Part shown: piece after piece, positions 3-43,200 of the stretch | How the letters are laid out: the number at the start of each line of letters is the position of its first letter | Numbering within the stretch: position 1 is the first letter of the stretch | Assembly: GCA_015178975.1 (NCBI GenBank) | Contig: WHVD01000208.1 | Span: 1-64,000, forward strand | Length of the DNA: 64,000 nt | Direction of reading: 5' to 3' | Origin: Hysterangium stoloniferum | Lineage: Eukaryota > Basidiomycota > Agaricomycetes > Hysterangiales > Hysterangiaceae | Notes under the pieces: generated by a model | The model's input: only the letters and a program-made list of their open reading frames with translations | Told to the model about the DNA's origin: nothing | The model's database searches: none | Translations under genes and position numbers: made by a program

Positions 3-2029
3 ATTCTGTCGCATTGGAAACCGGACTTCCCGCTCATTGTTGAAACGGACGCCTCCGACTATGCACTTGGAGCTATTCTCTCTATCCAGGACTCCGACGG
101 AGAAGTTCACCCCGTGGCTTTTCTGTCCCAGACTTTTACCGGAGCAGAGCTCAACTACGACGTTCATGATAAAGAACTTCTGGCAATCTTTTCAGCTTTC
201 AAAGCATGGCGACACTATTTGGAAGGTTCAGGAGCTCCTATTGACGTTGTAACAGATCACAAAAACCTGGAATACTTTTCTACCACAAAACTCTTGACCC
301 GTCGGCAGGCCCGCTGGTCTGTATATCTCTCCGCCTTCAACATGATTATCCGTTTTCGACCCGGCCGTCTCGGCGGCAAACCCGACGCTTTAACTAGACG
401 ATGGGACGTCTATCCTAAAGAGGGGAGCAACGACTATGCAACGGTAAATCCGCACAACCTGAAACCTATCTTCACGAATCAACAACTTACCGCATCGGTC
501 CGCGCAACTTTCCTCGTCAATCCCATTGTCCGTGGAATTATCATTATGGATATCGAAAAATTACATCAAGATATTCTATCGGCAATTCCGCTAGACCCAG
601 TTACTAAAGCTCATCTGGACAATCCCGTGGACCCCGATCAACCTCGGTGGTCTCTTGATCAACATGGTTTCATTAGACTTGACGATCGTATCTATGTACC
701 GGACTCCGACGGCCTCCGCCTCAGGATCCTTCAATACAAACATGATCATCCACTCTCAGGACATTTCGGGTACAACAAGACTCTATCATTAATAAGAAGA
801 GAATATACTTGGCCCGGACTCCGTGGATTCATTAAGCACTATTGTAAATCTTGCACTACTTGTCCCCGCTCGAAATCTCAGCGACACAAGCCATACGGCC
901 TTTTGAAACAACTCCCGGTACCGGAACACCCGTGGAATTCTATATCTATGGATTTCATTGAACACCTACCGGATTCCGAAGGCTTTTCCGCTATCCTAGT
1001 CGTTGTTGACAGATTCTCAAAACAAGGTATATTCATCCCTACTTATGATACAATTACGTCCGTGCAGTTAGCGGAACTTTTTATTATCCACGTATTTTCC
1101 AAGCACGGAGTTCCGTCCCACGTGACTTCCGATCGAGAATCAGAGTTCATGTCTCACTTCTTTAGATCCCTCGGAAAATCCTTGGACATGACATTACATT
1201 TCACGTCCGGACATCACCCGGAAGGTGACGGACAAACCGAACGCGTCAACCAGACATTGGAACAATACCTCCACGTATATTGCAACTATCAACAGGACAA
1301 TTAGAAAACCTTGTTACCACTTGCAGAGTTTGCTTACAACAATGCACCCTCGGCCACTACTGGCGTTTCCCCGTTCTTTGCAAATAAAGGATATAATCCA
1401 AATATTACAGTACATCCAGAACGAAATCTCGCCTCTGTTCGTGCTCAAGAGTTCACCACAGACCTCCACGAGCTCCACGAGGAACTCCGGACTGCAATAT
1501 TGTCCGCCCAAGAGCAATACCAACATTCAGCGGACAAACACCGGATCCCGCCACCAAACTTCAAGATTGGCGACCGTGTTTATGTCAAAGCTCAATTCTT
1601 CCGGACTACCCGTCCATCAAAGAAGCTTGCTGAAAATATTTAGGTCCCTTTGAAATTATCGCACAAGTAGGTTCAGTTTCTTGGACTCTACGGCTTCCGG
1701 ATAGCATGCGCGCGGTACACCCGGTATTTCATGTCTCTATGCTAGAACCTTGTACTGCTAACACTATCCCGGATCGCGTGCAATCTCCGCCTCCTCCTGT
1801 CGTCATTGACGGAGAACCCAAGTTTGAAATCTCTCAGATTTTAGATTCAAAAATTGACAAGCGTCGACGCACTTGTAAACTGCTTTACTTGGTCAAGTGG
1901 GCGGGTTACGAGGGCACCGATGAAGAAACCTCATGGATTTTGGCCACGGAACTCGGTAATGCCACGGAAATTGTTACTGACTTTCATACAGCTTACCCAC
2001 TCAAACCTGGACCATTATCGTCTCTCTGA
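3..2029 (+). pseudogene. gypsy-1 pol 3' part: RNase H, integrase, chromodomain (broken)
   Basis: The frame starting at base 3 reads RNase H, including the first TDASDYALG motif and the later DHKNLEYF. Integrase follows, with an HHCC zinc finger (two His near 750-765; CKSC..C near 845-865) and a catalytic core: Asp in MDFIEHLP, Asp in SDRESEF, Glu in HPEGDGQTERVNQ. SDRESEF replaces the usual SDRGSEF, a G-to-A change beside the catalytic Asp. A TAG at 1302-1304 stands where relatives have Trp (DNWKTLL). A one-base loss in an A-run near 1636 moves the rest to another frame. The frame ending at 2029 carries the C-terminal GPF/Y-like region and a chromodomain (YLVKWAGYEG...TSWI). This marks the chromovirus clade, whose chromodomain targets integration to chromatin. 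Confidence 0.9.
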
Positions 2030-2232: not shown

Positions 2233-3215
2233 TCAGTCTACATTTATGGGACTATGTTTTTTCCCCTCTGCCTCAGCTACCTCCTCAGGGAGCTCCGCGA
2301 CCTCCGCGGCAACCCCGTCCTCATCCGATCCGGCATCCTCGGAACTCCCGACTTGCGGCTCTTCAAAGACATAGCCGCCATACTCCGCCAGGAACTTCCA
2401 AAACTCCTCACGGAGTCCGGACAGCTCCTTTGCCACCACAATTTGGACTTTGTTGCTCTTCCGGAGCAACTCGTTTTGGGCCTCGATGCCCTCGGCGATC
2501 CATCCAAGGACCTCGTCCAACCCGGACAACCCGTCCGTCCCGCTTATGTCTCGCGCCCCGGATCCCGTGGCCTGCTCGTGCACAAGCGAGCACCTCGCCT
2601 TGAGGTGCGCGCATTGATAACATCCCGGCCCCCGGCCGGCCTTTCGGTCGCATTCCGTGTTCCGGTCGTTGCAACCGGAACACCTCGGCTCGTTCCGCGT
2701 CGGAAGACGGACTGGCGCCACCTTCCTTGCCTTCTGTTGAGTTGGTCAGTCTCCGCGGGTATTCCATGGACATGAGGCCTACCTTTTGGGGGCTCTCTGG
2801 CTCCCCCTCGGACTCCAACTCCACCTCTGTCGCTTTGCGCTGAAAATCACAAGTCAGTAAAAAATCGACAAGTGAATTTGGGACTTACTTTTCCCGCAAC
2901 AATGGCGGCCCTCTCCGCGGCCAACCGGGCTTTCTCCGCAGCCACACGGGCGTTCTCCGCGGCCACTCGCGCAGCCTCCTCCGCCTCACGTTCCCCCTCC
3001 TTTGCGGCCTCTTCCTCCGCGGCCAATGCTTCCTGGTACTCTTTGTCCAGGGCCTCCTCAGCCTCCCTCGCCTCTCTCTCTGCTGCTTCACGAAGCTGGC
3101 GCTGCTCTTCTCGCCGCGCCAACAATTGGGCCGCCGTCCACGGCGCCCGATACGGAGTGCCCGTGGAGGGCCCTGCTGTCGGCATTGGCTTGCGTGGTGT
3201 TGGTTTTGGTCCCAT
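2233..3215 (-). CDS. Antisense retroelement gene: Ala/Glu coiled coil plus Zn(II)2Cys6 cluster
   Basis: This gene lies inside gypsy-1, on the opposite strand, between the chromodomain and the 3' LTR. I derive three exons: 3215-2889, 2839-2783 and 2733-2233. The introns are 49 bp (GTAAGT...TTTCAG) and 49 bp (GTAGGC...CAACAG). The joined frame gives 294 aa. Residues 1-30 are Pro-rich, and about 40-109 are a heptad-like Ala/Glu/Arg stretch with repeated ARVAAEKARLAAE blocks, probably coiled coil. Residues 146-176 are C-x2-C-x6-C-x9-C-x2-C-x6-C, exactly the fungal Zn(II)2Cys6 spacing. An acidic C-terminus follows (about 240-294). I chose ATG 3215 because the in-frame upstream ATG adds only a Phe-rich run. 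The product may bind DNA or nucleic acid; function is inference. Two clean introns plus a frame with no stops argue for a real gene rather than a shadow. Confidence 0.66.
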
Positions 3216-3411
3216 AGTGACGAAGATGGGGGTAATAAAGAAGAAGAAATTTCTATTTTTCAATTTTTTATATAGGCTCGTCGCGTTTGAACCTTACCTT
3301 CCAGATCACATGACTCTTTGACACATACGTGTAACCGACATGACTTTTGACACATGCGCGTAGCCGACAAGAACCTTATTTAGGTCTAGAGCCTCTTTGG
3401 GACTTTGGCAT

Positions 3412-3424
3412 AAAGGGAGGATAC
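3412..3424 (+). promoter_or_regulatory. Polypurine tract of gypsy-1
   Basis: The purine run AAAGGGAGGATAC lies immediately before the TGTTACGACC start of the LTR, where plus-strand DNA synthesis is primed in LTR retroelements. Confidence 0.7.
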
Positions 3425-4243
3425 TGTTACGACCGGGCAAATCCCGCCGGACTCCGGGCACTAACTCGTACGCCCCCACGCGCTACAAGCACCAATCGTC
3501 TGTTTATAGGATTTCCCGCCCGGACTCCGTTACGTCAAGACTCGTTACGTTTGACCTCATTAAGACACATATCAGTCACTGGACTTCCCCCGGACCCCGT
3601 CTCTGTCTATGTCCGTCTTCGTCCCACGCATCAGTCACCGGACCCGCTTAGAATCCTGTCACCGCTCTAATCGAGCCCCGTTCCCGTTTTAGTCAAATGA
3701 CCTGTCACGATTTAGGACTCCGCTCCCGCTCCGTTTCCCGTTATGGGTTATGCTTTGTCACGATTCGGACTCCGCTCCGTTCCGTCCCGTTCCTAACACC
3801 AATTTGGTGTTTACTATTCCCGTTCTATGTTTTGCTCATTTTGTCTCATTATTACTGGATTCGGTATGTCATGCATTCCACGGTCTATATAAACTGGCAG
3901 ATGTTGTACATACAATCCAGTCAGAAAATTAGCTTAGATTCCCCCAGTAATCTAATACATTTTCCTCTCTAAAAACCCTACTCTTATCAGACCGCTCGCA
4001 CTAGTCGGAGCCCACGGGCTCCGGCGCATCTATCTCTCTCGACTATCTCGATTCATGACTCTCGACTCACGACCTACGACTCACGACCCACGAACCCCCG
4101 CCCGGACTCCCCGGGATTCCCGTCCGCCTGTCTGAAATTGGACAATACGATCTAGCGAGGGCGCAGCCTATAAGCTGAAGCCAAGTCCTACCGGATATCC
4201 CGCGGGTTTCTCCGGAAACCCGGCCTGAGTGTGTATCCTAACA
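3425..4243 (+). mobile_element. 3' LTR of gypsy-1 (819 bp)
   Basis: It begins TGTTACGACCGG and ends CCTAACA. A second copy at 25289-26104 is close to identical, which fixes both ends. It contains a TATA box and, near the 3' end (4161-4190), the motif GCGCAGCCTATAAGCTGAAG followed by CCAAGTCCT, which recurs in several other LTR families of this window. Confidence 0.93.
3884..3893 (+). promoter_or_regulatory. LTR TATA box
   Basis: TCTATATAAA lies in the middle of the LTR and is followed about 25 bp later by TTGTACATACAATCC, a plausible start site. The same arrangement is kept in the solo LTR at 25747-25756. Confidence 0.6.
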
Positions 4244-4601: not shown

Positions 4602-5085
4602 TGTTAAGTGAATGCACACAGCATTAAGGGAATGTGCATGGCATTAAGTGAATGTGTGAACACAACATCATGTGAATGACTGTCTGCATGACAAATGAGA
4701 CACACATGATAATAAAATAGAATTCAAACCTTAGAATTCAAACCTTAGAATTCAAACCTTAGTTTAGTTTTCCCTTTAGTATAAATACCTAAGATGTACA
4801 TAGTCAAACCCCAGTTTCAATCTCTTAGGAATTCCACTAAACCAGTGTGATATTCTCAAGTCATTAGAACCTTTATTCATTATCCCTTAATTCTTCTTGT
4901 GATTTGGTAGCCTTGTTAATGTTGCCCTAACACAACTCTTAGTAGTTTGGCTCACTGGTCAATTGAACTAAGTGTTGATCTTTGCTTTTATCATACTATC
5001 TGCTCTGTTTGAAATACCAGAGCACCCTAACAGTTCATATGAGGGTGCAACACATAAGTTGAAGCCAAGCTCCACTATGTTTATA
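4602..5085 (+). repeat. Degenerate LTR-like repeats
   Basis: 4602-4932 runs TGTTAAGTG...CCCTAACA. Its last ~150 bp (TTTCAATCTCTTAG..., GGTAGCCTTGTTA) match the right end of the element at 54042-54785, so it looks like an old solo LTR of that family, but I found no clean target duplication. A triplicated AATTCAAACCTTAG unit sits at about 4720-4760. 4933-5085 shares ATCTGCTCTGTTTGAAATAC and GAGGGTGCAACAC with 25010-25110, so it is another dispersed repeat. Confidence 0.5.
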
Positions 5086-5940: not shown

Positions 5941-7534
<1,594 letters not shown>

Positions 7535-7690
7535 TTTGGGCTCTCTGTACATTAGGAATATATTGCAGTCATTTTTATTGTCAAAATTCCTGGCTTCATG
7601 TAATTTTATTATGTTGTGCGCTGTGGATCCAATGACATAGTCTACATACAAACGCGTCCACAACGCGCCCACAATTATATTGGTGTCACG

Positions 7691-8938
7691 ATGTCTTCCC
7701 GCTCTGTATCACCTCAAGTTGAAGAAAAAGCTCCTCCTCTAATACCTCCTTCACTCCCATCACCATTAACAGCTCTCTCAAGTTCATATACGTACCATTC
7801 GCCAAAACCAACGGCAGATGGTCCGTACATCCTCGGTGTAGATGAGGCAGGACGAGGTCCTGTCCTTGGACCTCTTGTATACGGTGTTGCATATTGTCCA
7901 GCAGCATATTCGGAAACATTGGGAGGGATGGGTTTTGCTGGTCCGTGTGATTGCTTCTCTGTGAATTCACTAACTAAATGTTGTTCGGCGACGATCACCA
8001 GACTCAAAAACATTAACGCACGATACACGAGCGCGGTTATTGGCTTCACTATCCTCCGATCCTGAAAATCTAGGATGGTCTGTTCGCATTATATCGTACG
8101 TTGCATTTTATTTGCATGTCATATCCCAAACTAAGAGCTGGCACGCGATGTCAAGTCCTCAAGATATCTCCCGTGGTATGCTCCACCACCCCCCCACGAA
8201 TCTCAATCAGCAATCACAAGACGCGACTATTCTTCTTATTAGGGAAGTGATGGATGCAGGCATTCCATTATCAGAAGTTAGCATCTCCGCATTCATCTTT
8301 TTGCTCGATCCTGAGATTCGATCGATTGCACAGGTGTATGTGGACGCCCTTGGCCCCTCAGTACCGTATCAGGCATACCTTTCTTCGCTTTTTCCCACTT
8401 TGTCCATAACTGTCACACCCAAGGCGGACTCGATATATACAATTGTTGGTGCGGCAAGTGTGGCGGCGAAGGTGACAAGAGATGCGTGGATCGAAGGGTG
8501 GATATATGAGGAAGCCAGGGACAACGCAGTGGGTGACCCACCTCTGCGAGGCGAGCATATTCCCCTTGGTAGTGGATATCCTAGTGGTGAACTTGAGTAT
8601 ACCGGTAACTATTGAATGTTCTGAAAATCCGTCTTTATTGCAGATCCGAAGACAAAGGCATGGTTGATATCAGCTCTCGAACCAACTTTTGGCTTTCCTT
8701 CGCTTACACGCTTTTCTTGGGCGACTGTTAAGATCATGTTGGATAAAGGTGCTCATAAAGTGGAATGGTGAGTTGGGCTGCTTTGAACATTCCAATGCCT
8801 CTTCTTTAAATGATGCTGGGTAGGTCGGATGAAACGCAAACGTCACTTATAAAAGCCTTTGAATCTGGATCTGGGGCGGACAAAGACCGTTGCTTCCTGG
8901 CCAAGGATCTTGGTATACACAATGTCAATCATTTATGA
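7691..8938 (+). CDS. RNH201: Ribonuclease H2 catalytic subunit A
   Basis: It removes ribonucleotides from DNA and degrades RNA in RNA:DNA hybrids, as the catalytic subunit of nuclear RNase H2. Exons are 7691-7940, 8002-8095, 8156-8276, 8334-8586, 8644-8767 and 8824-8938, giving 318 aa, close to the eukaryotic family length of 300-310. The active site is visible: D51-E52 in GVDEAGRG (with the GRG motif), D159 in VYVDALG and D187 in PKADSIY. The family motif [10 protein letters not shown] spans the first splice junction, and the substrate-sensing Tyr is in GSGYPSDPKTK. The N-terminal ~45 residues are Pro/Ser-rich and probably disordered. All introns are GT-AG, 56-61 bp. It follows RPT2 closely on the same strand; I see no sign of shared regulation. 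Confidence 0.96.
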
Positions 8939-25108: not shown

Positions 25109-25288
25109 GTTAAGGTGTATGCAGAGCTTAGCAGAGGGTTTCTGGAGAAACCCATGGATAATCCAGGAGGACTTGGCTTCAGCTTATAGGCTGCACCCTT
25201 GTAAGATCATGGCATCCAATTTCAGACAAACAGACGGGAATCCCAGGGAGTCTGGGAGTAGTTGGTGGATTGAGAGGTTGGAGGGTTG
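25109..25288 (-). mobile_element. gypsy LTR fragment (inverted), continued at 26110-26156
   Basis: The reverse complement matches the 3' part of the gypsy-1 type LTR, including the shared core GGCTTCAGCTTATAGGCTGC near 25171. A gypsy-1 solo LTR splits it, and the gypsy-2 LTR at 26157 then truncates it. Confidence 0.7.
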
Positions 25289-26104
25289 TGTTACGACCGG
25301 ACAATCCCGCCGGACTCCGGGCACTAACCCGTACGCCCCCACGCACTACAAGCACCAATCGTCTGTTTATAGGATTTCCCGCCCGGACTCCGTTACGTCA
25401 AGACTCATTACGTTCGACCTCATTACGACACATATCAGTCACCGGACTTCCCCCGGACTCCGTCTCGTCTATGTCCATCTTCGTCCCACGCATCAGTCAC
25501 TGGTCCCCACTTAGAATCCCGTCACCGCTCTAATCGAGCCCCGTTCCCATTTTAGTCAAATGACCTGTCACTATTTAGGACTCCGCTCCCGCTCCGTTTC
25601 CCATTACGGGTTATGCTTTGTCACGATTCGGACTCCGCTCTGTTCTGTTCCGTTCCTAACACCAATTTGGTGTTTACTATTCCCGTTTCATGTTTTGTTA
25701 GTTTCGTTTCATTATTACTGGATTTGGTATGTCATGCATTCCACGGTCTATATAAACTGGCAGATGTTGTACATACAATCCAGTCAGAAAATTAGCTTAG
25801 ATTCCCCCCAGTAATCTAATAACATTTTCCACTCTAAAAACCTTACTTGATTCACATCACTTGCAGTCGGAGCCCACGGGCTCCGGTGCATCTACCTCTC
25901 TCAACCAACTCGACTTACAACCCACGACCCCCGACTTACGACCTACGACCCACGAACCCCACCCGGACTCCCCGGGATCCCCGTCTGTCCGTTTGAAATT
26001 GGACAACACGATCTAGCGAGGGCGCAGCCTATAAGCTGAAGCCAAGTCCTACTGGATATCCCGTGGGCTTCTCCGGAAACCCGGCCTGTGTGTGTATCCT
26101 AACA
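25289..26104 (+). mobile_element. Solo LTR of gypsy-1 with target duplication GGTTG
   Basis: TGTTACGACCGG...TATCCTAACA, 816 bp. It is highly similar to the gypsy-1 3' LTR at 3425-4243. GGTTG flanks both ends (25284-25288, 26105-26109). CpG sites are largely kept, so the insertion is recent compared with its surroundings. Confidence 0.95.
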
Positions 26105-26156: not shown

Positions 26157-27300
26157 TGTTACAACCCATGTGTTTGGCACACTGTCAGACCTGATCAGAC
26201 TTCACACAAAACTCCAACCACTTGCAAACTGATGGTACCCCAACTAACCCCATTTAGCACTTTCATTGTTCCTGATTGGTATTTCCATCTGCCCTTTCTA
26301 TACAACCAGTCTATGCCTTTTTCTGCCCCCATAGTAGTCTACATCCAGATTTGTAATATTCCATCTATTGGTTTCTGTCTTTGCATCACTCTATATGTAG
26401 TTCCATCTTCTCCATTAGTACTTTCCTTTGTTCTGTTTTCATTAGGATAAGTGTGAAGAGTGGCGGAAGTTCTGACCGTTCTATATATGAAGAAATGAGT
26501 AGAAAGGAGAATATTGACCTATTCGGTGCAATATAAGAGGAAGTGTGAGAGAGAGAGCACTAGATGATGAAGGAGTCAACGAGTGCGATGGATCGAGTGG
26601 TGGCCTCGACTGTTACAGTTCGAGGCCAGAAGTGTTCAGTAGTTCAGATAATGCTACCTAAGTGGTAGCTGACACGTTACCCTGATCACCGCTCGTAGTA
26701 GACCTAGTTTGTGTCTTACGAGTGGTGGTGCTTGGGTAGAAGTGTGTCTGAGTTTCATTAGGTGCCGAGTGCACCCACAAGTATACACAATGCTTTGAAC
26801 TAATGAAATATGCAATATTCGAAGAATATAAAAGATAAAAAAATATGAATAAAATGTGTAAAATATAAATGAAATAAAAGGAGTGTTTTACCACAATGAA
26901 ACTGTGGTAAAAGCATACTCCTCACAATAAGTGCCAGTTTTCTGTATATATGGTGCTCATGTATCATAGTATCAGGATAATCAGAATATTGACTAAGAAC
27001 ACTCCTAAACAACTCTCATAGTCTCACTCTAAATATCCCACTCTCTGCCTCTGCTTGCGTTCACTCACCCTCGGTCTCTAATTCTCAGTCCTCAACCCTA
27101 TGACCAACCCTTGACTTACTCTTCGGTTTCCGATCGGTGACTTACCAAGAGGAATATATGACAGGACTAGTTTTCTGCCCACCTGAAATTTAAGGACACC
27201 CGATGGTAACTTGCAAGGGTGCAGCATATAAGCTGAAGCCATGTCCTTCCATTCAGTCCCCATCACTCTACCAACATCAGTCAGTTTTCTGTTCTTAACA
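26157..27300 (+). mobile_element. 5' LTR of gypsy-2, interrupted by an LTR-C
   Basis: It begins TGTTACAACCCATG and ends TTCTTAACA; gag starts 36 bp later. Without the nested LTR-C and its target copy it is about 664 bp. The same LTR, inverted, is at 51258-52695. The shared LTR core (GTGCAGCATATAAGCTGAAG) lies at 27217-27248. Confidence 0.86.
26452..26926 (-). mobile_element. Solo LTR-C with target duplication ATAAG
   Basis: TGTGAAGAGTGG...ACTCCTCACA, 475 bp, inverted relative to the family's sense. ATAAG flanks both sides (26447-26451 and 26927-26931). It is nested in the gypsy-2 5' LTR. Confidence 0.94.
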
Positions 27301-27336: not shown

Positions 27337-30300
27337 ATGGCTCCAAGGAAGAAAGATGTTAAGCCAAGCAGCAAAGCAGAATCTTCTACCCTCCAATCTC
27401 CATTCCTGTATACAGTCCGAGCCACTCCAAAAACCCCACAACCAGAACCCTCCAAAGAATCTGCTTTGTGGAAATTACTGGCATCACTGAGGAAGTAACT
27501 GAAGCCACTGAACCTGAAGCACCTGAAGAGGTTGTAACAATCAGTCAGCTCCAGGACCTGAACCCGAGGATAGTGATGGGTCTATACCTCAAGCCAGTGG
27601 TCCTACAAAGTCTGCAAAACAAAAGCTGGATTTTACTCCTGACAAAGCATGGGAATTGTTCTCAGGTACCTTGGGATCCCTTAATGACTTTTTAAAGAAC
27701 AATACCAATATGCAATGTCAATTCAACTTCTGGGATTGCCCAGCTGCCTTTGCAACAGATGACCAAAAGGTAAACTTTGCACTCTCTTACCTCAAGGATT
27801 CCACAGCAGCCTGGTTTGAACCTGCATTTTCTGGCCTCACTTCTGAAGATCCCGATTGGCTTCATAATTGGGATGCTTTCATTGAGGAACTCAAAACAAA
27901 CTTCAGCCCCTACAACCAAACTGGTGATGCTGAGGCTGCACTTTCTAATCTCAAGATGAAAGACACCCAACACATTACCGACTATATCGTCTAGTTCAAC
28001 AACCTTGCCGTAAGTTGCGACTGGGGCAATTTGGCCCTCCATTACCAGTTCTACTTCAGCCTTCCATTCCACCTCAAAGATGAAGTTTCCAAAGGAGAGA
28101 TGGGTAAGCTGAAGACTCCCACTCATGCATCTAAAAGCCCAAAATGTGGATGCCCGATATTGGGAATGACACTCGGAAATCAGTTGTGAAAACCCATTGG
28201 ATAAAAAATCATCAGACAACAAGAATGCCAACAAGCCTGGAAATCAAAATACCAGCAATACCGGCAACTCAAACTCCAGTAAGAAGTCTGACAACAAGAG
28301 TTCCAACAACAAAAGAGGCAAAGGCAAACAGTCGGGTAAGGCTCAAGACAAGGACAAACCTGACCTCACTGGCAAACTCGGCTCCAACGGCAAGCTCCTA
28401 CCACAGGAGAAGCAATGCCAAATGGACAACAACCTTTGTTTGTTGTGCGCAGATCCTGGACACTGAGTTGCCGCATGCCTGAAGGCTACAAAAGCCTGAT
28501 CAGCCAATACAGCTACAACTTCACAACTGGTGAAGCCAGCTGCCAAGTCAAAAAAAGATTAAGCAACTCTCTGGATTCCATGCAGTTGGAGAGTTGCATT
28601 GAATCTCCCTGCACATCGAAGAATTGTCATCTTAACATGTCCGCTCTTTATGATCCAAATTCCTTATTTGTAAATCTTATTTCAGAACCCCTCGGGAGCC
28701 TCAATTTTCGAGCTCTTGTAGATTCAGATTCAACTCATTGTTTCATAGATATAAGTTTTTCCCAAAAACATCAGTTAAAAACCTATGCAATAGATCCAAT
28801 TCCACTCCAACTTTTCGATAGTACCTCAAACTCTGTAATTTCACAAGCCTGTGAACTCCGACTTTGGTTCCCATGTGGAACTTTTCAGACAGTTACTTTT
28901 TTGTAACACAGTTGGACTTGAGCTGCTCTGTGGTTCTAGGACATAACTGGCTCACCCACTACAATCCATTGATTGATTGGGTATTGGGCAGTATCTATTT
29001 CTGAAACCCATCAGCACCTGATACGACTGGTCTGTCTCTGCCTGTTTTGGCAAATATGGCCTCTACGGCACCTCTGGCCCCCATGGCAAATCCAAGCTCT
29101 CTGCCTCCTGTCTCTCTAATAAACACCACAGCTTTTATGAGAGCCATCAAGTTGGAAGGTTCCCAAGCATTTACAGTCAACCTTAAAGTTGATGAAGCCA
29201 CTGGTTGTTTTGCAACCCCGGTGGCCAAACCCATTGCAGATTTGGAAGGTGTTCCAGAAAAATACCACAAATTTGCAGACATCTTCAGTAAACAAAAAGC
29301 TGATTGACTTGCCCCTCACAGGCCCTACAATTTGAAAATTGATATTTAAGAAGGTTCACATCCACCCTTAGGCCCAGTTTATCATCTCTCGCAGTCTGAA
29401 CTATCAGCTATCTGAGATTTCTTGGATGAACACTTGGCTATAGGATTTATCTGACCCTCAAAATCTCCTTATGGAGCCCCTGTTCTATTCGTTTGGAAAA
29501 AAGATGGTTCCCTATGGCTTTGCATTGACTTTCGAGGACTCAATGCGATCACTCAGAAAGATAAGCACCTGTTGCCACTAATCTCCAATTTACTTGATGC
29601 CCCTCAGAAGGCCCAAATCTATACAAAGATAGATCTTAAACACACCTATCATTTGGTTCAGATTGCTGGAGGCAATAAGTGGAAAACAGCTTTTCGCACT
29701 CGCTATGGCTCTTTCAAATGGTTAGTGATGCCTTTCAGTCTCACCAATGCTCTGTTGGTCTTTCAACATTTTATCAATGACGTCTTTTCTGACTTCCTTG
29801 ACATCTATGTCATTGTGTACTTAGCAACATCCTCATATTTTCCAAAGACCCCACACTTCACAATGAACATGTCTGTGAAGTTCTCTGAAGACTCTGAAAA
29901 CATGGTCTTTTTGTGAATGTAAAAAATGTTCTTTTGATGTCAACACGGTTGAATATTTAGGTTTCATGATGGGACCCAATGGTCTCTGCATGGATGACTC
30001 TAAAATTCAAGTCATTCAAGATTGGCCGGAACCCCGAAAGGTTAAGGACATTCAGTCCTTTTTAGGCTTCGCCAATTCTCATCATTGTTTCATTCACAAC
30101 TACTCAAAAATCACCATTCTGCTTACTCATCTTACTCATAAAAACACCCCATGGAATTTCTCTGAGGAATGCCGCATGGCATTCCAAGAATTGAAAAGTG
30201 CATTTACATCTGCCCCTATTTTGTCACACTTGGAAGCCCAATGTTCAACTCATTGTAGAAACTGACACCTTGGATTATGCATTTGCTGCAATATTGTCCA

Positions 30301-30610
30301 TTCTGGACACCGACAGTGAAGTCCACCCAGTAGCCTTCTTGTCTCACACCTTTTTGGCACCTGAACTTAACTACAATGTTCATGACAAAGAACTACTCAC
30401 GATATTTGAAGCTTTCAAGACATGGCAACACTATCTGGAAGGATCAGCATCTCTGATAGATATTATAACTGACCACAAGAATTTGGTTTACTTTTCAACC
30501 ACAAAACTACTCCCATTGGCAAGCCCAGTGGTCCGAATACCTCTCTGCCTTCCAATATGGTTATCTGCTTCCATCCCAGCCACCTTGGTGGAAAACCTGA
30601 TGCTATGACT
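27337..30610 (+). pseudogene. gypsy-2 gag-pol relic
   Basis: Gag starts MAPRKKDVKPSSK, and the capsid part (27656-27994) keeps NFALSYLKDSTAAWFEP. A TAG at 27992 stands where Gln fits (YIVQFNN). A zinc-knuckle remnant near 28430 (NNLCLLCADPGH) follows. The retropepsin at 28650-28910 reads ALVDSDSTHCF, losing the Gly of the catalytic DSG. In RT (29280-30200), TGA codons replace expected Arg before DFLDEHLA and before PSKSPYGAP, and a short deletion falls in the YLDD active-site box near 29820. RNase H at 30270-30490 keeps VHDKELLTIFEAFKTWQHY. Frameshifts are frequent. The 3' end is cut by the LTR-C at 30621. Domain order and sequence make it a close relative of gypsy-1. Confidence 0.9.
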
Positions 30611-30620
30611 AGACAATGGG

Positions 30621-31220
30621 TGTGAAGAGTGGTGGAAGTTCTAACCGTTCTATATACGAAGAATATCGACCGTTTAGGTATGACACGCAGTCTAAGTCTC
30701 ATACAGACTGAACAGGTATTGACTACTTAGTTCAATACGATTGAGTGAAGTAGCTATCTAAAGTAAAGTAGAGAGCTAAAACAAATAAAGGGAATCGACT
30801 GTTAAGTGCGATTCCGAATGACTGCTCAAGTGTAGAAAAGAGTAACGAGAGAGTTGAATAGTAGAGTAGCGTGGATGTAGTCCATGCGGATTAAGATATA
30901 GATGGAGTTTCGACTGGTACAGTTTGAAACTCTGATTGCGTGGATAGTTAAAGCCTGTCTGTAACAGTCAAGATGATACCCCAATCACAACTTACAGGAC
31001 ACTAACTGGGTGTCTGGGTAAGTCATGGTTGCGGGGTAAAAGGTTTCTGAGTTCTATTTGGTGCCGAGTGCACCCACAAGTATACACAAAGCTTCGAACT
31101 AATGAAATGGTGCAATATTCAAAGAATATAAAGGATAGAAAAATATGAATAGAATGTGTAAAATATAAATAAAATAGTGTTTTACCACAATAAAACTGTG
31201 GTAAAAGCATACTCCTCACA
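30621..31220 (-). mobile_element. LTR-C, long subtype, no target duplication
   Basis: TGTGAAGAGTGGTGGAAG...ACTCCTCACA, 600 bp. The left half resembles the 48414-49042 subtype and the right half the 26452 subtype. Flanks differ (ATGGG / CTCAC), so this is a recombinant or rearranged copy joining gypsy-2 to the minisatellite. Confidence 0.82.
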
Positions 31221-32440
31221 CTCACTGGCTGGAGGAAAGAGAGAGGAGGTCAGTCAGAGGAGGACAGAGGAAGAAGGAAATGGTACATGCACCGACTGGA
31301 GGAAAGAGAGAGGGCCGATCAGAGGAGGACAGTGGAAGGAAACAGTACACGCACTGGCTGGAGGGAAGAGAGAGGAGGCCGATCAGAGCAGGATGGAGAG
31401 AGAAGGAAAGGGTACACACACCTCCTGGAGGAAAGAGAGAGGAGGAAGAAGGAAATGGTACATGCACTGACTGGAGGAAAGAGAGAGGGCTGATCAGAGG
31501 AGGACCGAGAGAGAAGGAAAGGGTACATGCACCACCTGGAGCAAAGAGAGGGGCCAGAGGTGAGAGGAGGATGGAGAGGGAAGGAAATGGTACACACACT
31601 GACTGGAGGAATAGGAGATCAGAGGAGGATGAAGAGAGAAGGAAATGGTACACACACTCACTGGATGAAAGAGAGAGGAGGCTGATCAGAGGAGGACGGA
31701 AAAAGAAAGAAACACAGCATGCACTGGCTGGAGGAAAGAGAGGAGACCAATCAGCATAGGACAGAGGGAGAGGAAATGGTACACACACCAATGGGAGGAA
31801 AGAGAGAGGAGGCTGATCAGAGGAGGACAAAGAGAGGAGGAAAGGGTACATGCACCTCCTGGAGAAAAGAGAGAGGAGGACAATCAGAGAGAGAGAAGGA
31901 CAGGGTACACGCACCTCCTGGAGGAAACAAGCCGATTAGAGGAGGATGGAGAGAGAAGGAAACAGTACACGCACTGGCTGGAGGAAGGAGAGGAGGACAA
32001 AGAGAGAAAAAGGGGACACACATGACCTGGAGGAAAGAGAGGAGGATGCTCAGAGGAGGATGAAGAAAGAGGAAATGGCACATGCATGAAATGGTACCTG
32101 CACTCACTGGAGGAAAGAGGAGGCTGATCAGTGCAGGATGGAGGGAGAAGGAAAGAGTACACGCATCACCTGGAGGAAAGAGAGAGGAAGCTGATCAGAG
32201 CAGGATGAAGAGAGAAGGAAATGGTACATGCACTGGCTGGAGGGAAGAGAAGAGGAGGGCGAAGAGATAAGGAAACAGTACATGCACTGGCTGGAGGAAA
32301 GAGAGAGGGGATGATCAGTGCAGGATGAAGAGAGAAGGAAATGATACACACATGCAGTGGCTGGAGGAAAGAGAGAAGGAAACAATACACACATGCAGCA
32401 GTTGGAGGAAAGAGTGAGGCAGGTGGGTGAAGAGCATGCA
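31221..32440 (+). repeat. ~65-bp minisatellite, about 18 diverged copies
   Basis: The repeated pattern is CTGGAGGAAAGAGAGAGGAG, then (C)TGATCAGAGGAGGA, then AGAGAGAAGGAAATGGTACA and TGCA. Unit starts are 62-68 bp apart (31228, 31296, 31358, 31424). Strong purine/pyrimidine strand bias. Long frames on both strands (for example 230 codons at 31222-31914, reverse) arise from the repeat and show no domain. Confidence 0.93.
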
Positions 32441-33078
32441 CTGGCACCTTCCCATGAATGAAGAAAAGCCCCCACGGCATTGAAAAAGCTCCCAAACAGC
32501 TCCCACAGCATCAAAAAGGTTCTGAAAAGCTCCCGTGGCAGCCAAAATGCTCCTGTGCTGACTAATAACAGGGTTCGGGTGCTCCGTGCCCTCACACAGT
32601 GCCTAAAAGTGCCCACAGACCCACCATGCTACTTTAACTTATTGGATGACAAGCCTGGGAACCCTTGCTATGGTGTGGGGTGGTTGCTTTGCAACCTGCC
32701 CCACAACTCTTAAGTATTTCTGAGACTCATTGTCATAAAACATGGAAATTGCATCAGAATGGAAATTGTTGCTGAATGGAAAGTGTTGCTGAATGGAAAG
32801 TGTGGCTGAATGGAAAACGTTGCTGAATGGAAAGTGTCACTGAATGGAAAGTGTCACCAAACAGAAATCTCTTAGAACAGACACCCCTTTAAAGAAGAAA
32901 GTAAACAATGGGAAGTGTTATTACAAAAGGAAACAATGCACACAAAAGAAAACCACAGTTACAAAGGAAACAATGGTTACAAAGTAAACAACAGTTAGAA
33001 AGGAAACAACAGTAATACAGGAACAGTTACAAAAGGAACAATGGTCACAAACAGAATAATGGTCACAAACAGAACAAT
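32441..33078 (+). repeat. Low-complexity spacer with 17-bp tandem repeats
   Basis: At 32755-32865 there are six or so copies of TGAATGGAAAGTGTTGC. From 32900 to 33075 comes irregular reiteration of ACAATGGTTACAAA-type units. A 77-codon frame at 32480-32713 shows nothing recognisable. Confidence 0.75.
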
Positions 33079-33439
33079 TGTAAGCCTGGCCACCTTACCA
33101 CATACATCATCATTGAGTTACATAGCACCCTTGTGCCTTATGATGTGGTTATCATCACCAACCTATCTCAGCAACCACTCATTATTCTGTCACTTGATTG
33201 GTAAGTAGTGCCCCTGTGCCTGATCATTTGGTTCTTTGTTTTCCCACCACATTCACTTTGACTCTATATAAAACCCCATATCCTATAGTGATAGCATATC
33301 TTCTCTTTGACCATTAATCCTTTCCCCACTCTTCCCTAGGGAACCTTGCATTCACCTTGTATCCTACTGATATGTAAAAATAAAGAAAACTTAGTCCTGT
33401 CTGTGTTGACCGAGTGAGGCTGATACCAACAGCCTTACA
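33079..33439 (+). mobile_element. Solo LTR, separate family, target duplication ACAAT
   Basis: TGTAAGCCTGGCC...CAGCCTTACA, 361 bp. ACAAT is on both sides (33074-33078, 33440-33444). A TATA box (CTATATAAAACCCC, ~33266) and AATAAA (~33379) are in the expected order, giving the orientation. Repeats at 33060-33075 continue directly at 33445, confirming that the LTR was inserted into the repeat tract. Confidence 0.9.
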
Positions 33440-33444
33440 ACAAT

Positions 33445-33960
33445 GGTCACAAACAGAACAATGGTTACCAAAGGAAGAACAGTTCCAATGGTTGAATTCA
33501 CTGTCAACTGCAAGTAATTACTGTGGTCACCTGATTTATTTATTTTGATTTGCTTTATTTCATTTTGATTCATTGTATTTTAATTCCTGTATTTAATTCT
33601 GATTTACTGTATTTTATTTTGATTTAAAGATTTCATTTTGATTTACTATATTTTATTTGGATTTATTGAATTTTAGTTTATTTTATTTTATTTTATTTTT
33701 AATTGTTATTTTTTCTTCTCCATTTAACACATTTTATTTTTATTTATTCTATAAGGAGGGAAGAGAAAATGCTGCAAAGAAACAACCTCAGTTTAAGCTG
33801 CATTGTACACAGAATGGTGGCAAGTTTCAGGATTGCTCTCAGTGAATGGCCACCAATCCTGAGAAAAAACAATACCTTATATTGGGAGTGTTGTGTTGGT
33901 TATAGGCAGGAAGCAAAGCCATCAAGAATATATCACAAAATGGTTGTGAAGGGATGAGAT
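33445..33960. repeat. AT-rich low-complexity DNA
   Basis: Reiterated TTTTATTTTGATTTA-like units at 33530-33720, then unique AT-rich DNA. No supported gene. Confidence 0.6.
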
Positions 33961-34320
33961 TGAGTTATGGTGGACAGAAAGGCAAAGGACACACATACTA
34001 TAGAGGAGGAAGAAAAGAGAAAGACAGGGTACATGCACCACCTGGAGGAAAGAGACAGGAGGCTGATCAGAGGGGGGTGGAGAGACAAGGAAATGGTACA
34101 CACATTACCTGGAGGAAAGAAAGGAGGCCAATCAGAAGAGGACAAAGGAAGAAGGAAACAATACATGCACTGGCTGGAGGAGAGGGAGAGGAGGCCAATG
34201 AGAGGAGGACAAAGAGAGAAGGAAATGGTACACACACCATGTGGAGGAAAGAGAGGGCAAATCAGAGCAGTACAGAGAGAAGGACACACCACCAGCTGGA
34301 GGAAAGAGAGAGGAGGCCCT
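33961..34320 (+). repeat. Second block of the ~65-bp minisatellite
   Basis: Same unit and orientation as 31221-32440 (ACATGCACCACCTGGAGGAA, AGGCTGATCAGAGG), about five copies. The two blocks probably formed one array before the spacer expanded or was inserted. Confidence 0.88.
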
Positions 34321-36605: not shown

Positions 36606-39600
36606 ATGTCCAATCCCCAAAGCACCACTGAGAAAGCTTCTTCTCGACTCTACGATATTCCCTATCTAGATGACACCGGATCGAATTTCCAGTCATGGAA
36701 ATATCACACTCAAACGGTTCTCGAAGTTCGTGGATTGTCAAAAGCCCTCAAAGGCACTGAAACAGATCAGTCAAAAATCAGGGAAGCTAGAGCCCAGATT
36801 GTACTGACTCTGAAAGATGAACCATTAAATGGTGTCATTGGCCTCGATTCTGCTAAGGAGGTGTGGGAGAAGTTATGTGCTCGATATGAGGGAAAAGGGA
36901 CACAAAAAGTAGCTTACCTTATTGGTGAACTATTTCGAAGCAGCCTTGTGGACTCAGAAGCACTCAAACTGCAGATGAATAAAATGCGGACTACTGCCCA
37001 ATTGCTCAGAGCTCTTGGAAATGAAATAAAAGACAACCTTATTGCCATTGCAATCATCCTATCACTTCCCCCTTCCTACTCAACTCTTCAGACCATCCTC
37101 ATGTCACTCGAAGATCAGAAGACTGAAGATGTCATTGCAAAAATCCTTGCTGAAGAATCCCATCAAAAAGAATCAGCTACACAAGCTGCATTTCTAGCGA
37201 AGTTCCGGATCAATGCAGGAAAACCTAAAGATACATCAGCTTCTGGGAAAGAGAAGAAGAAGAAGAAAGAATACAAGAAATGTGATAATTGTGGAAAGAA
37301 GCATCCTGGTGAATGTCGAAAGCCCAAAAACGATTCAAAGGATGATAAGTCTGATAAGCCCAAAGCACCAGAAGCCACAGCAAAAATGGCACAAGCTGCA
37401 GCATCCACAAGCCAGCCAATCCAACTCTTCATGGCTAGTGAGCAATCCCGAAATCACAATATCCCACAGAAATGGATAGTCGACTCTGGAGCATCAGCTG
37501 CCATGAGCTCACATCGTGAATGGTTTGCCACTTACCACAAACTCAAAGAACCTATGAAGGTTTGGCTGGGTGATAATTGTTACATACTTGCTGTAGGAGA
37601 AGGTTCAGTAAAACTTGAGCTATCCGTTGGAAATCAGAAAATCACTGGCATTGTTCAAAAAGTGCTACATGTACCTGATTTGCATGGAAATCTTCTATCC
37701 GTCTCCAACCTGACACAAAATGGACTTTGAGTGGCTTTTGAAGCTGATGGAATGTGTTGCATCTATAATGATCAGGACATGCTTGTAGGAGAAGCTCATC
37801 TGGAAGGAAATATATACATCCTCCATGCCGACATTATGCTATCTGAACAAATTAACATCAGCAAAATTATTCCAGGATCCGAGATGGAGCCACAAACACT
37901 TACTGCAGTTGCTACAAAGTTGAAGGGTGGTGTGAAGTTATGGCACCGTCGCCTAGGACACATCAGTGTAAAGTCGGTTCTTCAAATGGTCAAGAAAGGC
38001 ATGGTAAAGGGAATGTCAATCACGAAATGCAAAACAACTGACAATTCACCTTGCGAACCCTGCCTACATGGAAAGCAAGCCCGGGTACCCATTCCAAAAT
38101 TGACGGAAGATTGGAAAACTACAATTCTCACACATATACATTCAGATATATGTGGGAAAATGGAAACTGAATCACATACTGGCTACAAATACTTCATAAC
38201 TTTCATTGATGATGCAAGTCAGATGGTTGATATTGCCTTCTTGAAGCAGAAATCTGAAGCATTAAGCTATTTTTCGGCTTTTGTGGCCAGGGTTGAGGTC
38301 GAGACTGGAGCACGGGTCATTAGACTTAGGTCTGATGGTGGTAGGGAATATATTTCAAAGGAATTCAAGACTTACCTCCAGTCCAAAGGTATCAAGCACG
38401 AGAAAACAAATGCATACACTCCCCAAGAAAATGGCGTCTCTGAAAGAATGAACTGAACACTAGTTGAAAGTGCTCGTTCAATGCTTAAAGATGCCATATT
38501 GCCTGATTCGTATTGGGCAGATGCAGTGGAATATGCAGGTCACATTCGGAATGTAGTCCCTACTCGAGCATTATCAAATTCAACACCACATGAAGCCTGG
38601 TTTGGAAACCTACCTGATATCAGCCAATTTCATATTTTTGGCTGTACGGCATACGTACTCATCCCTGAAAACAAGTGTCAGAAACTTGATGGGAAAACCA
38701 TCAAGTGCACATTCATTGGGTATGTCAAAGACAAGAAAGCTTACTGATGTATTGATCGCACCACTGGCCGAGTGTATGAAAGTTGTGATGTAGTTTTTGT
38801 TGAAGATATGGCAGAAGATCCAGAATGAGTAATAGTGGAATTACCCTCTACCTCAATGGAAACAGAAATTGCTCGTACCACCACACCAGTCGAATCAATT
38901 GGGGATGATAGCTACCTCCCTGGTCTGCTAGAAGTTGAAGACTCAGATGATGAGGATGATGACAGGCCACACAACAGTTATTTTGGAGAATCAGATGACA
39001 GTGATGATGAAAATGATAGTCTCTTACCCCCATCACAGTCTGAATCACCACCTACTCCATCAGTAATCCCACCACCTCCTGCAACAGATAATGATACTCG
39101 CCCAAGCCATGTCCACAAAGCTCCAACTTGAGATGATGATGACCGTTACTTTGTATCCTCATATGGATCAAGAAATAAGGCTGAAGCGGGTGATGATCAA
39201 GCCAAGATTGCATACTCAGAGTTGAAAGAACCAGAAACTTACAAAGAAGCAATGAAAAGGCCGGATGCTCCACTCTGGAAGGCTGCATGTGCCAAAGAAC
39301 TTCTGTCATTTGTAAAGACAGAGTTGTATGACGAAGTAGAGTGGCCAAAGGGACATCGAGTTGTCGACTGCAAATGGGTGTTCAAGCTAAAGCGTGGCCC
39401 AGATGGTGAAATTCTTTGGTACAAAGCTAGACTTGTGGTAAAAGGATTTACTCAAGTTGAAGGCATCAACTATAATGAAACTTTTGCACCAGTAGCAAAA
39501 TTCGCATCCATTCGAGCCCTCCTAGCCTTGGTAGCTGAACTTGACCTAGAATTGCACCAAATGGACGTCAAAACAGCTTTTCTCAATGGGGATCTCGAAG

Positions 39601-40273: not shown

Positions 40274-43200
40274 ATGAAAGAGGATTCGACTATTATCTAT
40301 TGCAGAAGGGACCCTCTGGGTGGGTATTCCAGTATTGGGATTTCAGCATTACATGTCTATGGATGCGTAGGGAATTCAGAAGCCTCAAATCCTATTAAAA
40401 TCAGGCTGGACGCTGGGGCTGACCTCTCCTTAATCTCGGAGGATTTCTATAAGGAACTAGAGGACCACCCTAAACTCAAGCAAGGACTCAAGCTGCGCCT
40501 CGTACAACTTACCGGTAATGCCAAAGTATTAGGATACGTCAACGTCCCCATTTATCTCGAGGACGACACCGGTATACTCCTTAAATTTACCGCCGAAACG
40601 TACATTGTCCGAGGTATGACCGTCCCGATCCTTCTTGGAGAAGACTTTCACGTGAATTATGAGATCGGGACACTGCGAGACCAACTGCTGGGTTCCAGAT
40701 TGATTTTGCCTGGGAGAGCAGGATCTATCCCAGCCAGTTCTTCCAAGGAGCCACAGCCTTTAACCTTTTCGATTAGCAAGATCCCCTTTGAGGAATTAGC
40801 CAATGACTCGCCTGAATTGACTTCCAAACCAGACAAAGGAGTGCGTACTGAAAGAGTCGCATGGGCCTTACAAGATTGTACTATAGAACCGGAATCGGCT
40901 CGATTAGTACCAATCTTTGTAGGAGATCTTATTGGTGACCAATGGATAGTCGAGGGAGTTGTCTTGCAGAACGACGATGGGAGTATACTAGCTGCTCCCA
41001 CCACCGCCATCTCTAGGGAACGTGCCGCAATACCTCTTGCTAATCCCTCTCTGATGCCAAGAATCATCAGACGAGGGGAAACCGTTGGATTAATTCACAA
41101 CACGAACAAATGGGCCCAGACTCCTAGATCTTTGACTGAGAAAGCATCAATGCAGTCAACGGCAACCAAGATTGCCCATCTCGTCGAGAGTCTATCAAAA
41201 ATAGAAGAGGAGCGTGTCCTTAATCCTCAATCCTCCGGACTGCCCCCAGAACGGGAACTCCTAGACAATTTCGACCCGGCAGGTCCTAAAACGTCAGAGG
41301 TTGCCACCACGGAAATGTTTCGTGCGGAAGATCTGCATAAGCTGGTTAACTTAGGACCTGACATCCCTACTGATGTCTCCTCCCACTTGGAGTCGGTATT
41401 AACTAAGAATGTCCTAGCCTTCGGAGTAGATGGGCGACTGGGACAAGTGGATGTCAAGGTCAATGTCCCACTGAAAGAGGGCGCGCAACCTATTTCAATG
41501 TCAATGTTCCCAACCTCCCTAGCTAATAGGAAGGTCATTGATGAACAAATGGATACTTGGTTCCAACAGGGAGTAATCGAACTGTCCAAGAGTCCTTGGG
41601 GGGTGCCAGCCTTTGTCGTCTATCACAACGGGAAACCACGAGTAGTGATCGACTATAGAAAGTTGAACAGTCTAACAGTTCCCGACGAATTCCCACTGCC
41701 ACGCCAGTCGGAAATCATGCAAGCGCTTTCGGGCTCCAACATCTTATCTTCCTTCGATGCACTAGCCGGTTTTACCCAACTTGAAATGTTAGAGGAAGAC
41801 AAGCCGAAGACCGCCTTCAGATCCCATCGAGGACTGTGGCAATTCAGGAGAATGCCCTTTGGACTTCATAATGGACCTTCTATATTCCAAAGGGTTATGC
41901 AAACCGTACTTGCACCTTACTTATGGATATTCTGCCTGGTTTATATCGACGACATTGTGATCTTTTCTGAGACATGGGATGATCATCTAGAACATTTAGA
42001 TCAGGTTTTACAAGCCATAATTGCTGCGGGAATCACTCTCTCGCCCAAAAAGTGCTATGTGGGGTATAATTCAATTCTACTACTAGGACATAAGGTGTCT
42101 AGACTCGGCTTTTCGACCCATCAAGAAAAGGTCGCCGCTATATTAGAATTGGCTACGCCTTCTAAGATAGCAGATCTTCAACGTTTTCTAGGAATGGTTC
42201 TGTACTTCTCCGCGTACATACCATTTTACTCCTGGACGGTCGCTCCACTTTTCAACCTCTTGAAGAAAGGAGTTCATTGGAATTGGGATTCTGAACACGC
42301 CCGAGCTTTTGAGGACATCAAGGTTGCATTGAGCTCAGCTCCAGTACTCGGACACCCCGCGAGCGGTATGCCTTATCGGTTAAACACAGACGCTTCGGAC
42401 TTTGCACTAGGATGTTGTCTCCAACAAATACAGAAAATGACGCTTAAAGACCTTAAGGATACGAAAATTTATGCCCAAGCACGAGCAGCCTTCGATCAAT
42501 CACGAGACGTGCCCATCTTCGTTACTCGTTATAAAACCAAGGAGCCGGAATTCACCTGGATGGATTCCTGGGCCGCAGATTTTGACGACACCAGTGTCAC
42601 GGTCGAACGTGTTATTGCCTATTGGAGCCGTACGCTCAAGAAAGTAGAATGTAACTATTCAGCCACAGAGCGAGAAGCATTAGCCGCTAAAGAAGGATTA
42701 GTCCATTTCCAGCCCTTTATCGAAGGCGAACCAGCGGAAAAGGCCGTCTTTCTCACTCATCACGAGTTAGTTGAACCTGTCAGAACCGTCAAAGAGGTCC
42801 CCCAAACGAAATGGGACTTGCACAACCTTCCCAGAAACGATGAGACTGACGAGGCGGATTTTACTCTCTCGAATCCACAATTGCTTATAGAGATCGATGA
42901 AAACTACGCTAAGGAACTTCGCGATGGATACCAGAAGGATCCCGCCTTCAGAAATCATTATGCCACCGATCCCATTTCTCCAAACATGGTAACTACTCCT
43001 TCGCATTATTTCATTGGCAAGAGTAAGTTATTGTTCTTTCGAGATTTGGACTGGAAAAGTTGAATCTGCATTCCTAGCAGCATGACGACAACCATACTCA
43101 AGCTGATACATGATAATCCCTTCGAAGGAGCTCATGCAGGCGGCCACAGGCTCTTTAATCTGATGAAAGACCGTTTCTTCTGGCCGAGGATGTTGCATGA

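Follow-up and report, generated by a model that had tools for sequence, protein, structure and literature searches.

Why would a retrotransposon carry, on the strand opposite its pol gene, a spliced gene for a protein with a zinc-cluster-like array of cysteines? The question arises from a window of 64,000 nucleotides (the whole stretch of DNA that we analyzed) from the false truffle Hysterangium stoloniferum, whose genome is reported in PMC7550596. Descriptions of antisense genes in LTR retrotransposons go back to the 1990s, and a review from 2020 still gave their function as unknown (PMC7264820). In this case, a target can be predicted from the domain of the antisense gene, and this target occurs densely in the element itself, coding sequence included. 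Because of this combination, the function of the gene is directly testable in vitro.

The window begins within pol, in the RNase H region, at base 1 of its contig (C122), and the 5' part of this copy of the element is absent. The 3' part of pol (3..2029, forward strand) was delimited from open reading frames, Pfam matches, and tblastn frames. It encodes RNase H, the H2C2 motif, the integrase core, and a chromodomain, and the Pfam models RT_RNaseH, Integrase_H2C2, rve, and Chromo all scored above their cutoffs. The chromodomain (PF00385; 1823..1987, forward strand) covers residues 40–94 of the 1706–2029 frame and scored 32.7 bits against a cutoff of 25.1. Downstream, a polypurine tract that we identified by eye (3411..3424, forward strand) precedes the 3' LTR (3425..4243, forward strand), which is 819 bp long and runs from TG to CA. 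This order of RNase H, integrase, and chromodomain, along with the TG..CA LTR and the polypurine tract, marks the element as a Ty3/gypsy chromovirus. The 5' LTR of this copy falls outside the contig; other copies have both LTRs.

Between pol and the 3' LTR, on the minus strand, the element carries a gene of 294 codons plus a stop codon in three exons (327, 57, and 501 nt, all in phase 0). Exon 1 (2889..3215) is rich in alanine, glutamate, and arginine and is probably helical, and the exon is retained in diverged copies. Exon 2 (2783..2839) is acidic and contains KRK, which is followed by KKARK across the next junction. Exon 3 (2233..2733) contains the Cys cluster, a possibly helical stretch, and an acidic tail that ends in SPINVD. 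The cluster itself (2590..2682, minus strand; Cx2Cx6Cx9Cx2Cx6C) places six cysteines within residues 146–176. Both introns are 49 nt long: intron 1 (2840..2888, minus strand) has the form GTAAGT..CTGAC..CAG and intron 2 (2734..2782, minus strand) has the form GTAGGC..CTGAC..CAG.

A preliminary description of this locus had proposed just such a gene, with two GT-AG introns and matched phases, and its model was exact to the coordinate. It also had the cysteine spacing exactly right and had correctly placed the gene between the end of the chromodomain frame, at 2029, and the 3' LTR (3425–4243). We saw again what it had remarked on in this copy, namely a broken pol beside an intact antisense frame: pol has an in-frame stop codon at 1302–1304 and a frame break near 1620–1658. 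An uninterrupted pol frame of 1304 codons is present in 7 of 11 other, longer copies that we examined.

The gene has many copies. When we searched the 111-Mb genome with P0001, one of the H. stoloniferum proteins discussed below, there were 4245 candidates, of which the best 150 were scored. For a closer look at recent copies, we scored the 40 of 730 candidates that were closest to the window; all are at least 97% identical, and the window is one of the 40. We aligned these 40 genes, 20 of which had long flanks where the contig allowed, and a diverged copy (L029). The spliced frame is intact in 35 of the 41 aligned copies, a share that comes from a biased sample, since the copies were picked by their similarity to the window.

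Both introns retain GT..AG in all 41 copies. The length of intron 1 is not 49 nt in eight of them (48, 48, 50, 50, 51, 52, 58, and 60 nt), and six of these eight length changes are not multiples of 3. The length of the coding sequence is altered in just four copies: by +9, by -12, by +1 (a broken frame), and by -4 in a copy that lies 64 bases from a contig end. We also compared 16 genes, comprising the window's and others at 72–97% identity. In this set, GT is kept in all introns, and AG is found in 16/16 second introns and in 15/16 first introns. A branch site resembling CTGAC or CTAAC can be made out by eye, and the middles of the introns are variable. The coding length is a multiple of 3 in 13 of the 16 genes; the frame is shifted in L058, L062, and L064, and stop codons occur in several of the other genes. 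Across 54 aligned genes, the six-cysteine pattern is present in all except L062 (53/54). The preliminary description had suggested looking for the Cys pattern and the introns in other copies, and both are conserved there. The introns would survive retrotransposition because the gene is antisense to the genomic RNA.

To check for selection on the antisense frame, we compared 39 copies (leaving out L029 and L047). The pooled Nei-Gojobori pN/pS was 0.25 in this frame and above 1 in the other frames listed, of which the reverse frames amount to one frame. As CpG transitions predominate among the changes (94 of the 136 are at CpG), we redistributed each change over the sites with the same base and CpG context. 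The 136 changes comprise 64 silent changes, 69 replacements, and 3 stops, while the expected numbers are 47.7, 85.0, and 3.4. The corrected N/S is 0.61 for all changes (P 0.0015), 0.40 for changes found in two or more copies (P 0.002), 0.28 for changes found in five or more copies (P 0.01), and 0.77 for singletons (P 0.10). This profile matches constraint while the element spreads and drift once a copy has inserted. For pol, in 18 copies, the corresponding values are 0.48 (all), 0.38 (two or more copies), 0.06 (five or more), and 0.53 (singletons). Variants that are common to several copies show purifying selection on the antisense gene that resembles the selection on pol.

When the frames are compared exon by exon, the antisense frame of exon 3 is constrained (N/S 0.53, P 0.004). 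The mirror sense frame has a ratio of 0.61 (P 0.02) but contains three stop codons. Exon 1 by itself does not separate the strands (0.74 for antisense and 0.77 for sense, neither significant). The preliminary description had read selection or recent loss from the intactness of the window's copy and had proposed a dN/dS comparison among copies. Selection is borne out by the variants of many copies rather than by the intactness of that one.

The 40 copies had been retrieved with the antisense gene itself. From the side of pol, we searched the genome for the integrase H2C2 region (best 150 of 2662 candidates scored). At least 38 of these best 150 integrase matches have a match to the antisense gene 1.4–1.8 kb downstream, and in 38 of 38 pairs it is on the opposite strand. 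One more match to the antisense gene (on contig C42) is upstream of the integrase and on the same strand. All 38 pairs are inside a block of 68 similar integrase matches. Among the matches listed, the other 30 of this block and all 82 matches outside it (112/150) are without an antisense match.

A second family, which we call family A (L067), has a pol that is 77% identical in protein and 73% identical in DNA. Its antisense gene has the same three-exon plan, with an exon 1 of 303 nt and an exon 2 of 81 nt. With TGATAG as the end of the second intron, the gene has 298 codons; a nearer AG would lead straight into a stop. The Cys cluster of family A has x10 in the middle, as do those of two further relatives (L069 and L070), instead of the x9 in the window. 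The antisense proteins of the window and of family A are just 31% identical over the 89 residues that we aligned around the cluster, which is far below the identity of pol. When we searched the genome with the protein from family A, the best 150 of 648 candidates were scored, at 53–100% identity. In family B (L068; pol 39% identical), all antisense frames 3' of pol fall short of 100 codons, and we recognized no cluster in the three frames that we inspected. The flank of family C has minus-strand frames of 108–155 codons that lack a Cys cluster by eye. These comparisons of sequence indicate that the antisense gene is carried by the element and has been kept in related families. As a side note, the first 330 bases of L069 contain a gag-like fragment directly before the tail of antisense exon 1, on the same strand and in another frame; by eye, this looks like a rearranged derivative.

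What kind of protein does the gene encode? In the PF00172 family of Zn(II)2Cys6 proteins, the spacing of the cysteines ranges over CX2CX6CX5-12CX2CX6-8C. The x9 cluster of the window and the x10 clusters of L067, L069, and L070 all fit this range. No Pfam family reaches its cutoff with the antisense protein. Zn_clus scored 15.4 bits at best, against a cutoff of 21, with the window's cluster cut out by itself, and the whole window protein had no match to Zn_clus at E values up to 1. The cluster from family A scored 12.0 bits. All six members of an alignment of the protein (A1) matched Zn_clus weakly, with a best E value of 0.012, and one of the six had a weak match to DUF5539 (E 0.0044). The first Cys arm of a Gal4-type cluster usually carries a number of basic residues. 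These are mostly missing from the first arm in the window (CSGCNDRNTEC), and the arm of L069 (CNRCTKRGRTC) is nearer to the basic type. The binuclear zinc cluster of the preliminary description is upheld in its cysteine spacing but not by the Pfam score or by the residues of the first arm. We consider zinc binding and DNA binding to be plausible properties of a zinc-cluster-like domain.

The accompanying coiled coil for dimerization fared similarly. Exon 1 does encode a helix-like segment rich in alanine and glutamate, but it is N-terminal to the Cys cluster, while in Gal4-type factors the dimerization coiled coil comes after the cluster. A helical stretch C-terminal to the cluster appears only in a low-confidence model (exon 3 folded alone gave a poor model, with a pLDDT of 49.5). 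Dimerization via these helical segments is probable. The basic residues KRK..KKARK across exons 2 and 3 resemble, by eye, a bipartite nuclear localization signal, and the C-terminal SPINVD resembles a SUMO-interacting motif, again by eye. SPINVD is retained in 6/6 rows of alignment A1 and has no counterpart in family A.

The search for relatives in fungal proteomes that the preliminary description had proposed turned up nothing beyond this species. Among 5.8 billion proteins, the antisense protein matched only proteins of H. stoloniferum, in a type of search that requires shared short words and may miss distant relatives. The matched proteins (P0001–P0003) are annotated as hypothetical and align only in part. 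Over residues 65–201, P0001 matches contig C334 of the genome at 99%, which points to H. stoloniferum or a very close species as the host. A search of the sequences in the PDB gave nothing relevant to the antisense protein.

The region upstream of the antisense gene is the best conserved among the segments that we compared. In 12 diverged copies, the divergence of the ~200 bp between the ATG and the LTR is 0.083 (0.059 without CpG), while it is 0.157 and 0.276 for the two introns and 0.217, 0.119, and 0.185 for the three exons. This stretch includes the polypurine tract of the sense strand, so part of its conservation may serve reverse transcription. A TATA-like sequence, TATATAAA (3267..3274, minus strand), lies 52–59 nt before the ATG and is a putative core promoter of the antisense gene. 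By eye, it is present in the 20 aligned upstream rows, and it is kept in family A (L067) and in L070 as well. The upstream region also contains a nearly invariant block and a 29-bp tandem repeat (3308..3369, minus strand), of which family A has one related copy by eye.

Inverted repeats of CGG are the usual targets of fungal Zn(II)2Cys6 factors, and the element is full of them. The 9-mer CGGACTCCG, which has the form CGG-N3-CCG, occurs 10 times in the window versus 0.13 expected; six of these occurrences are in this element and four are in a related solo LTR. Within pol, CGGACTCCG is found at 700..708, and other CGG-N3-CCG sites start at 710, 815, 970, 1542, and 1691. The antisense gene has sites at 2411, 2559, 2626, and 3141. 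In the 3' LTR, CGGACTCCG is found at 3448..3456, with other sites at 3521, 3591, 3766, and 4015. In the stretches that we examined, the density of CGG-N3-CCG is 3.03 per kb in the window's own family, 3.54 per kb in family A, and 0.00 per kb in family B. Outside of the own-family DNA, the window has eight sites, of which five are in a solo LTR that matches the LTR of family A at 99%, with one more in a piece of an A-like LTR. Once DNA similar to either family is masked, the rest of the window has two sites in 52.4 kb, or 0.04 per kb.

We used synonymous-codon shuffles to quantify the excess in pol, with copy L014 representing the window's own family. With whole-pol shuffles, inverted CGG pairs with a spacing (x) of 3 occur 9 times versus 1.64 expected, and those with x=5 occur 10 times versus 1.67 (P 0.001 for each, which is the floor of the test). 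These are the only inverted spacings from 0 to 20 with P below 0.01. Everted pairs with x=9 (6 versus 1.63) and direct pairs with x=4, 6, 7, and 8 are also raised. In the pol of family A, x=3 occurs 12 times versus 1.58, and it is the only inverted spacing of CGG from 0 to 12 with P below 0.006. The excess at x=3 persists when codons are shuffled within blocks of 60 (9 versus 2.45, P 0.002, in the own family; 12 versus 2.64, P 0.001, in family A). At x=5, the block shuffles gave 10 versus 2.83 (P 0.001) for the own family and 3 versus 1.42 (P 0.15) for family A. The control gypsy pols had no CGG-N3-CCG sites (0 versus 0.57 for family B and 0 versus 0.08 for family C, 60-codon blocks), and the 1122 nt of the own gag that we tested had one (versus 0.09, P 0.09). 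The link between gene and motif comes from two related families that have both. Of the two controls for it, family B has no recognizable gene, and family C may or may not have one.

The sites have turned over between the families: within the aligned stretch, the 10 sites of the own family and the 13 of family A share only three alignment columns. The LTR of L014 contains 6 sites, versus 0.85 expected under a second-order Markov model. Among 11 diverged LTRs, the GACTC core of the LTR sites differs at 16/318 non-CpG cells (5.0%), as compared to 672/6404 (10.5%) for the rest. The CpGs within the motif are not significantly less decayed (3.9% versus 4.8% per site, P 0.11). Among eight control triplets, none has an excess common to both families. 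An excess in one family was seen for GGA-Nx-TCC in the own family, at x=11 and also at x=1, which coincides with the CGG-N3-CCG site, and for CGA-Nx-TCG in family A, at x=0. Two features complicate the picture. CGG and CCG alone are about four times denser in the own family and in family A than in family B or the rest of the window, which makes it difficult to separate the motif from base composition. And because of the N5 excess in the own family, and the excess of some direct and everted pairs, the site is not cleanly one motif. RNA hairpins are an unlikely cause of the CGG pairs: hairpins with a 4-nt spacing have stable loops, and this spacing is not raised (1 versus 1.20). Codon pairs are unlikely as well, as the palindromes in pol occupy all three codon phases.

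We think it somewhat better than even, at roughly 55%, that the product of the antisense gene is a zinc-cluster-like protein that works as a dimer in the nucleus and binds the element encoding it. The element would produce a small protein from a spliced transcript of the antisense strand, using its own promoter beside the 3' LTR. This protein, in which a zinc-cluster-like domain is combined with a probable nuclear localization signal and with helical segments that probably dimerize, would act in the nucleus on the DNA of the element. It would recognize inverted CGG half-sites, above all CGG-N3-CCG, that each copy has at many points along its LTR and pol. As for the effect of binding, we lean weakly towards a positive or protective role rather than repression.

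One version of this reading has the protein as a trans-acting repressor that works through the LTR and pol and limits the number of copies or the damage to the host. A repressor would be served by LTR sites, of which L014 has six, and by those upstream of the putative antisense promoter (3448 and 3521), but the families are large and their copies are very similar, and we consider this version unlikely. A slightly less doubtful proposal is that this lineage evolved a means of self-recognition, independently of the VANC proteins of plants. The antisense protein would coat the LTRs and pol by way of the palindromes, selection on the DNA, extending across protein-coding sequence, would keep the palindromes dense, and the coat would counter silencing by the host. 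Two observations make such a shield appealing: the motif occurs throughout the element rather than at a promoter alone, and the copies decay in the manner of methylated DNA, by CpG transitions. The one indirect check, the decay of CpGs at motif sites, shows no significant protection. If this is true, it would be a further and unrelated case of transposons that mark themselves by the density of a motif, in fungi and in a retroelement.

The alternative that we take most seriously, although we would not bet on it, is that the protein has some other job, such as bringing the pre-integration complex into the nucleus, binding RNA, or serving the particle or integration. The CGG pairs would then be a by-product of composition or sites for host factors. 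The weakly basic first Cys arm, which is atypical for a Gal4-type protein, fits this alternative, as does the raised density of CGG and CCG overall. Nuclear accessory roles have been proposed for the antisense ORFs of plant elements as well (PMC7264820). What argues against a by-product is that the excess is specific to certain spacings, still stands when synonymous codons are shuffled in blocks of 60, and appears again in family A at mostly different positions, while no control triplet of the eight behaves this way. We give little weight to the idea that the antisense RNA is a brake, acting through double-stranded RNA and silencing, with a protein of little importance. In its favor, a transcript of the antisense gene would be complementary to the sense RNA at its 3' end, conservation of the upstream region is strong, and brakes of this kind have been discussed for other elements (PMC7264820). 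But purifying selection acts at the level of the protein in one frame, and a brake is not needed to explain it; also, the splice signals are conserved while the length of intron 1 drifts, and the Cys pattern is retained in a far diverged family. Finally, it is barely credible that the gene is a chance frame opposite a sense gene or a fragment of a host gene that was caught by one copy. The stretch is GC-rich with long frames on both strands, and in exon 1 the sense frame mirrors the signal. We rejected a chance or sense-coding frame because of the 35/41 intact frames and the frame-specific selection, which in exon 3 favors the antisense frame over a sense mirror with three stops. We rejected a single captured host gene, as an account of one copy only, because the gene is found in several families; the protein searches, with matches to H. 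stoloniferum alone, also count against it.

How does the gene compare to known systems? Antisense ORFs between pol and the 3' LTR are a known kind, with examples in Grande, RIRE2, Retand, and Boty. By position (antisense to gag-pol and between pol and the 3' LTR), the gene is an aORF-3R. The described cases of this type include gene23 of Grande, RIRE2, ORF4/TRP28 of Retand, and PvRetro13 (PMC7264820; PMC11963269); the first of these sources names plant cases and Boty. Nuclear location for Grande is on record, as is predicted DNA binding for TRP28 of Retand (PMC11963269). The gene resembles these in its position, its strand, its presence in many copies and families, and its suspected nuclear or DNA-binding role. 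Grande has a promoter of its own for its antisense gene; here, the conserved TATA and upstream region make one a fair candidate. What sets the gene apart from the aORF-3R cases is its protein, which has a six-Cys cluster and is neither TRP28 nor SMC, along with a pair of conserved introns, a fungal chromovirus as its carrier, and dispersed CGG palindromes. It resembles PF00172 factors in its cysteine spacing and departs from them in its sub-threshold profile score, its weakly basic first arm, and its long N-terminal helix-like exon. We recognized no antisense retrotransposon gene with a zinc cluster and introns in the literature that we surveyed, which covered few subscription papers.

Among fungal elements, a parallel is brtn of Boty, which was reportedly described by Zhao in 2011. 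The passages of PMC8365987 on Boty / BcGypsy1 from Botrytis cinerea mention brtn as an additional antisense gene. It too is an extra antisense gene of a fungal LTR retrotransposon, and we liken the two by description alone, not by sequence. Another parallel is the antisense gene of HTLV-type retroviruses, which is known as HBZ. That retroviruses of this type have antisense genes is noted in both PMC7264820 and PMC11963269. The likeness, again by description, is that of antisense genes near the 3' LTR that encode nuclear regulators, in another virus and another host.

In VANDAL transposons, VANC proteins recognize a short motif that is dense in their own element and rare elsewhere, and the motifs turn over between families (PMC5735166). 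The parallel here is a motif that is dense in its own element (3.03 and 3.54 per kb) as compared to 0.04 per kb elsewhere, where elsewhere is the rest of this window. VANDALs are DNA transposons, the VANC protein is not known to be related, and its motif is mainly in tandem arrays in non-coding DNA. Unlike the VANC motif, the palindromes sit in the coding sequence of pol as well.

The rest of the window contains other retroelement sequences and some probable host genes. LTRs of related families are found at 25290–26104 (forward strand; ~91% identical to the element's LTR), 51721–52554 (reverse strand; 79–80%), and 57614–58382 (reverse strand; 81–82%), and the family A-like LTR with five CGG-N3-CCG sites (99% identical) is at 47634–48357 on the reverse strand. 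A decayed gag-pol relic on the forward strand (27647–30620) is 86% identical to family A over 28346–30620. The pol of family C, from another gypsy clade, is at 41444–44140 (forward strand; 28% identity, 3 stops) and is the control that lacks CGG-N3-CCG. By eye, a frame of 374 amino acids at 36606–37730 (forward strand) resembles the gag of copia-type elements and includes a Cys-rich knuckle. Degenerate, purine-rich repeats resembling GGAGGAAAGAGAGAGG occupy long parts of 31200–34300, by eye. Frames at 6143–8615 (forward strand) resemble an AAA subunit of the 26S proteasome and the large subunit of RNase H2, and by eye these are host genes. Lastly, a short block resembling GAGGGCGCAGCCTATAAGCTGAAGCC recurs near the LTR ends of otherwise different families, at 4157–4185, 5041–5069, 25136–25256, 27210–27250, and 47683–47758.
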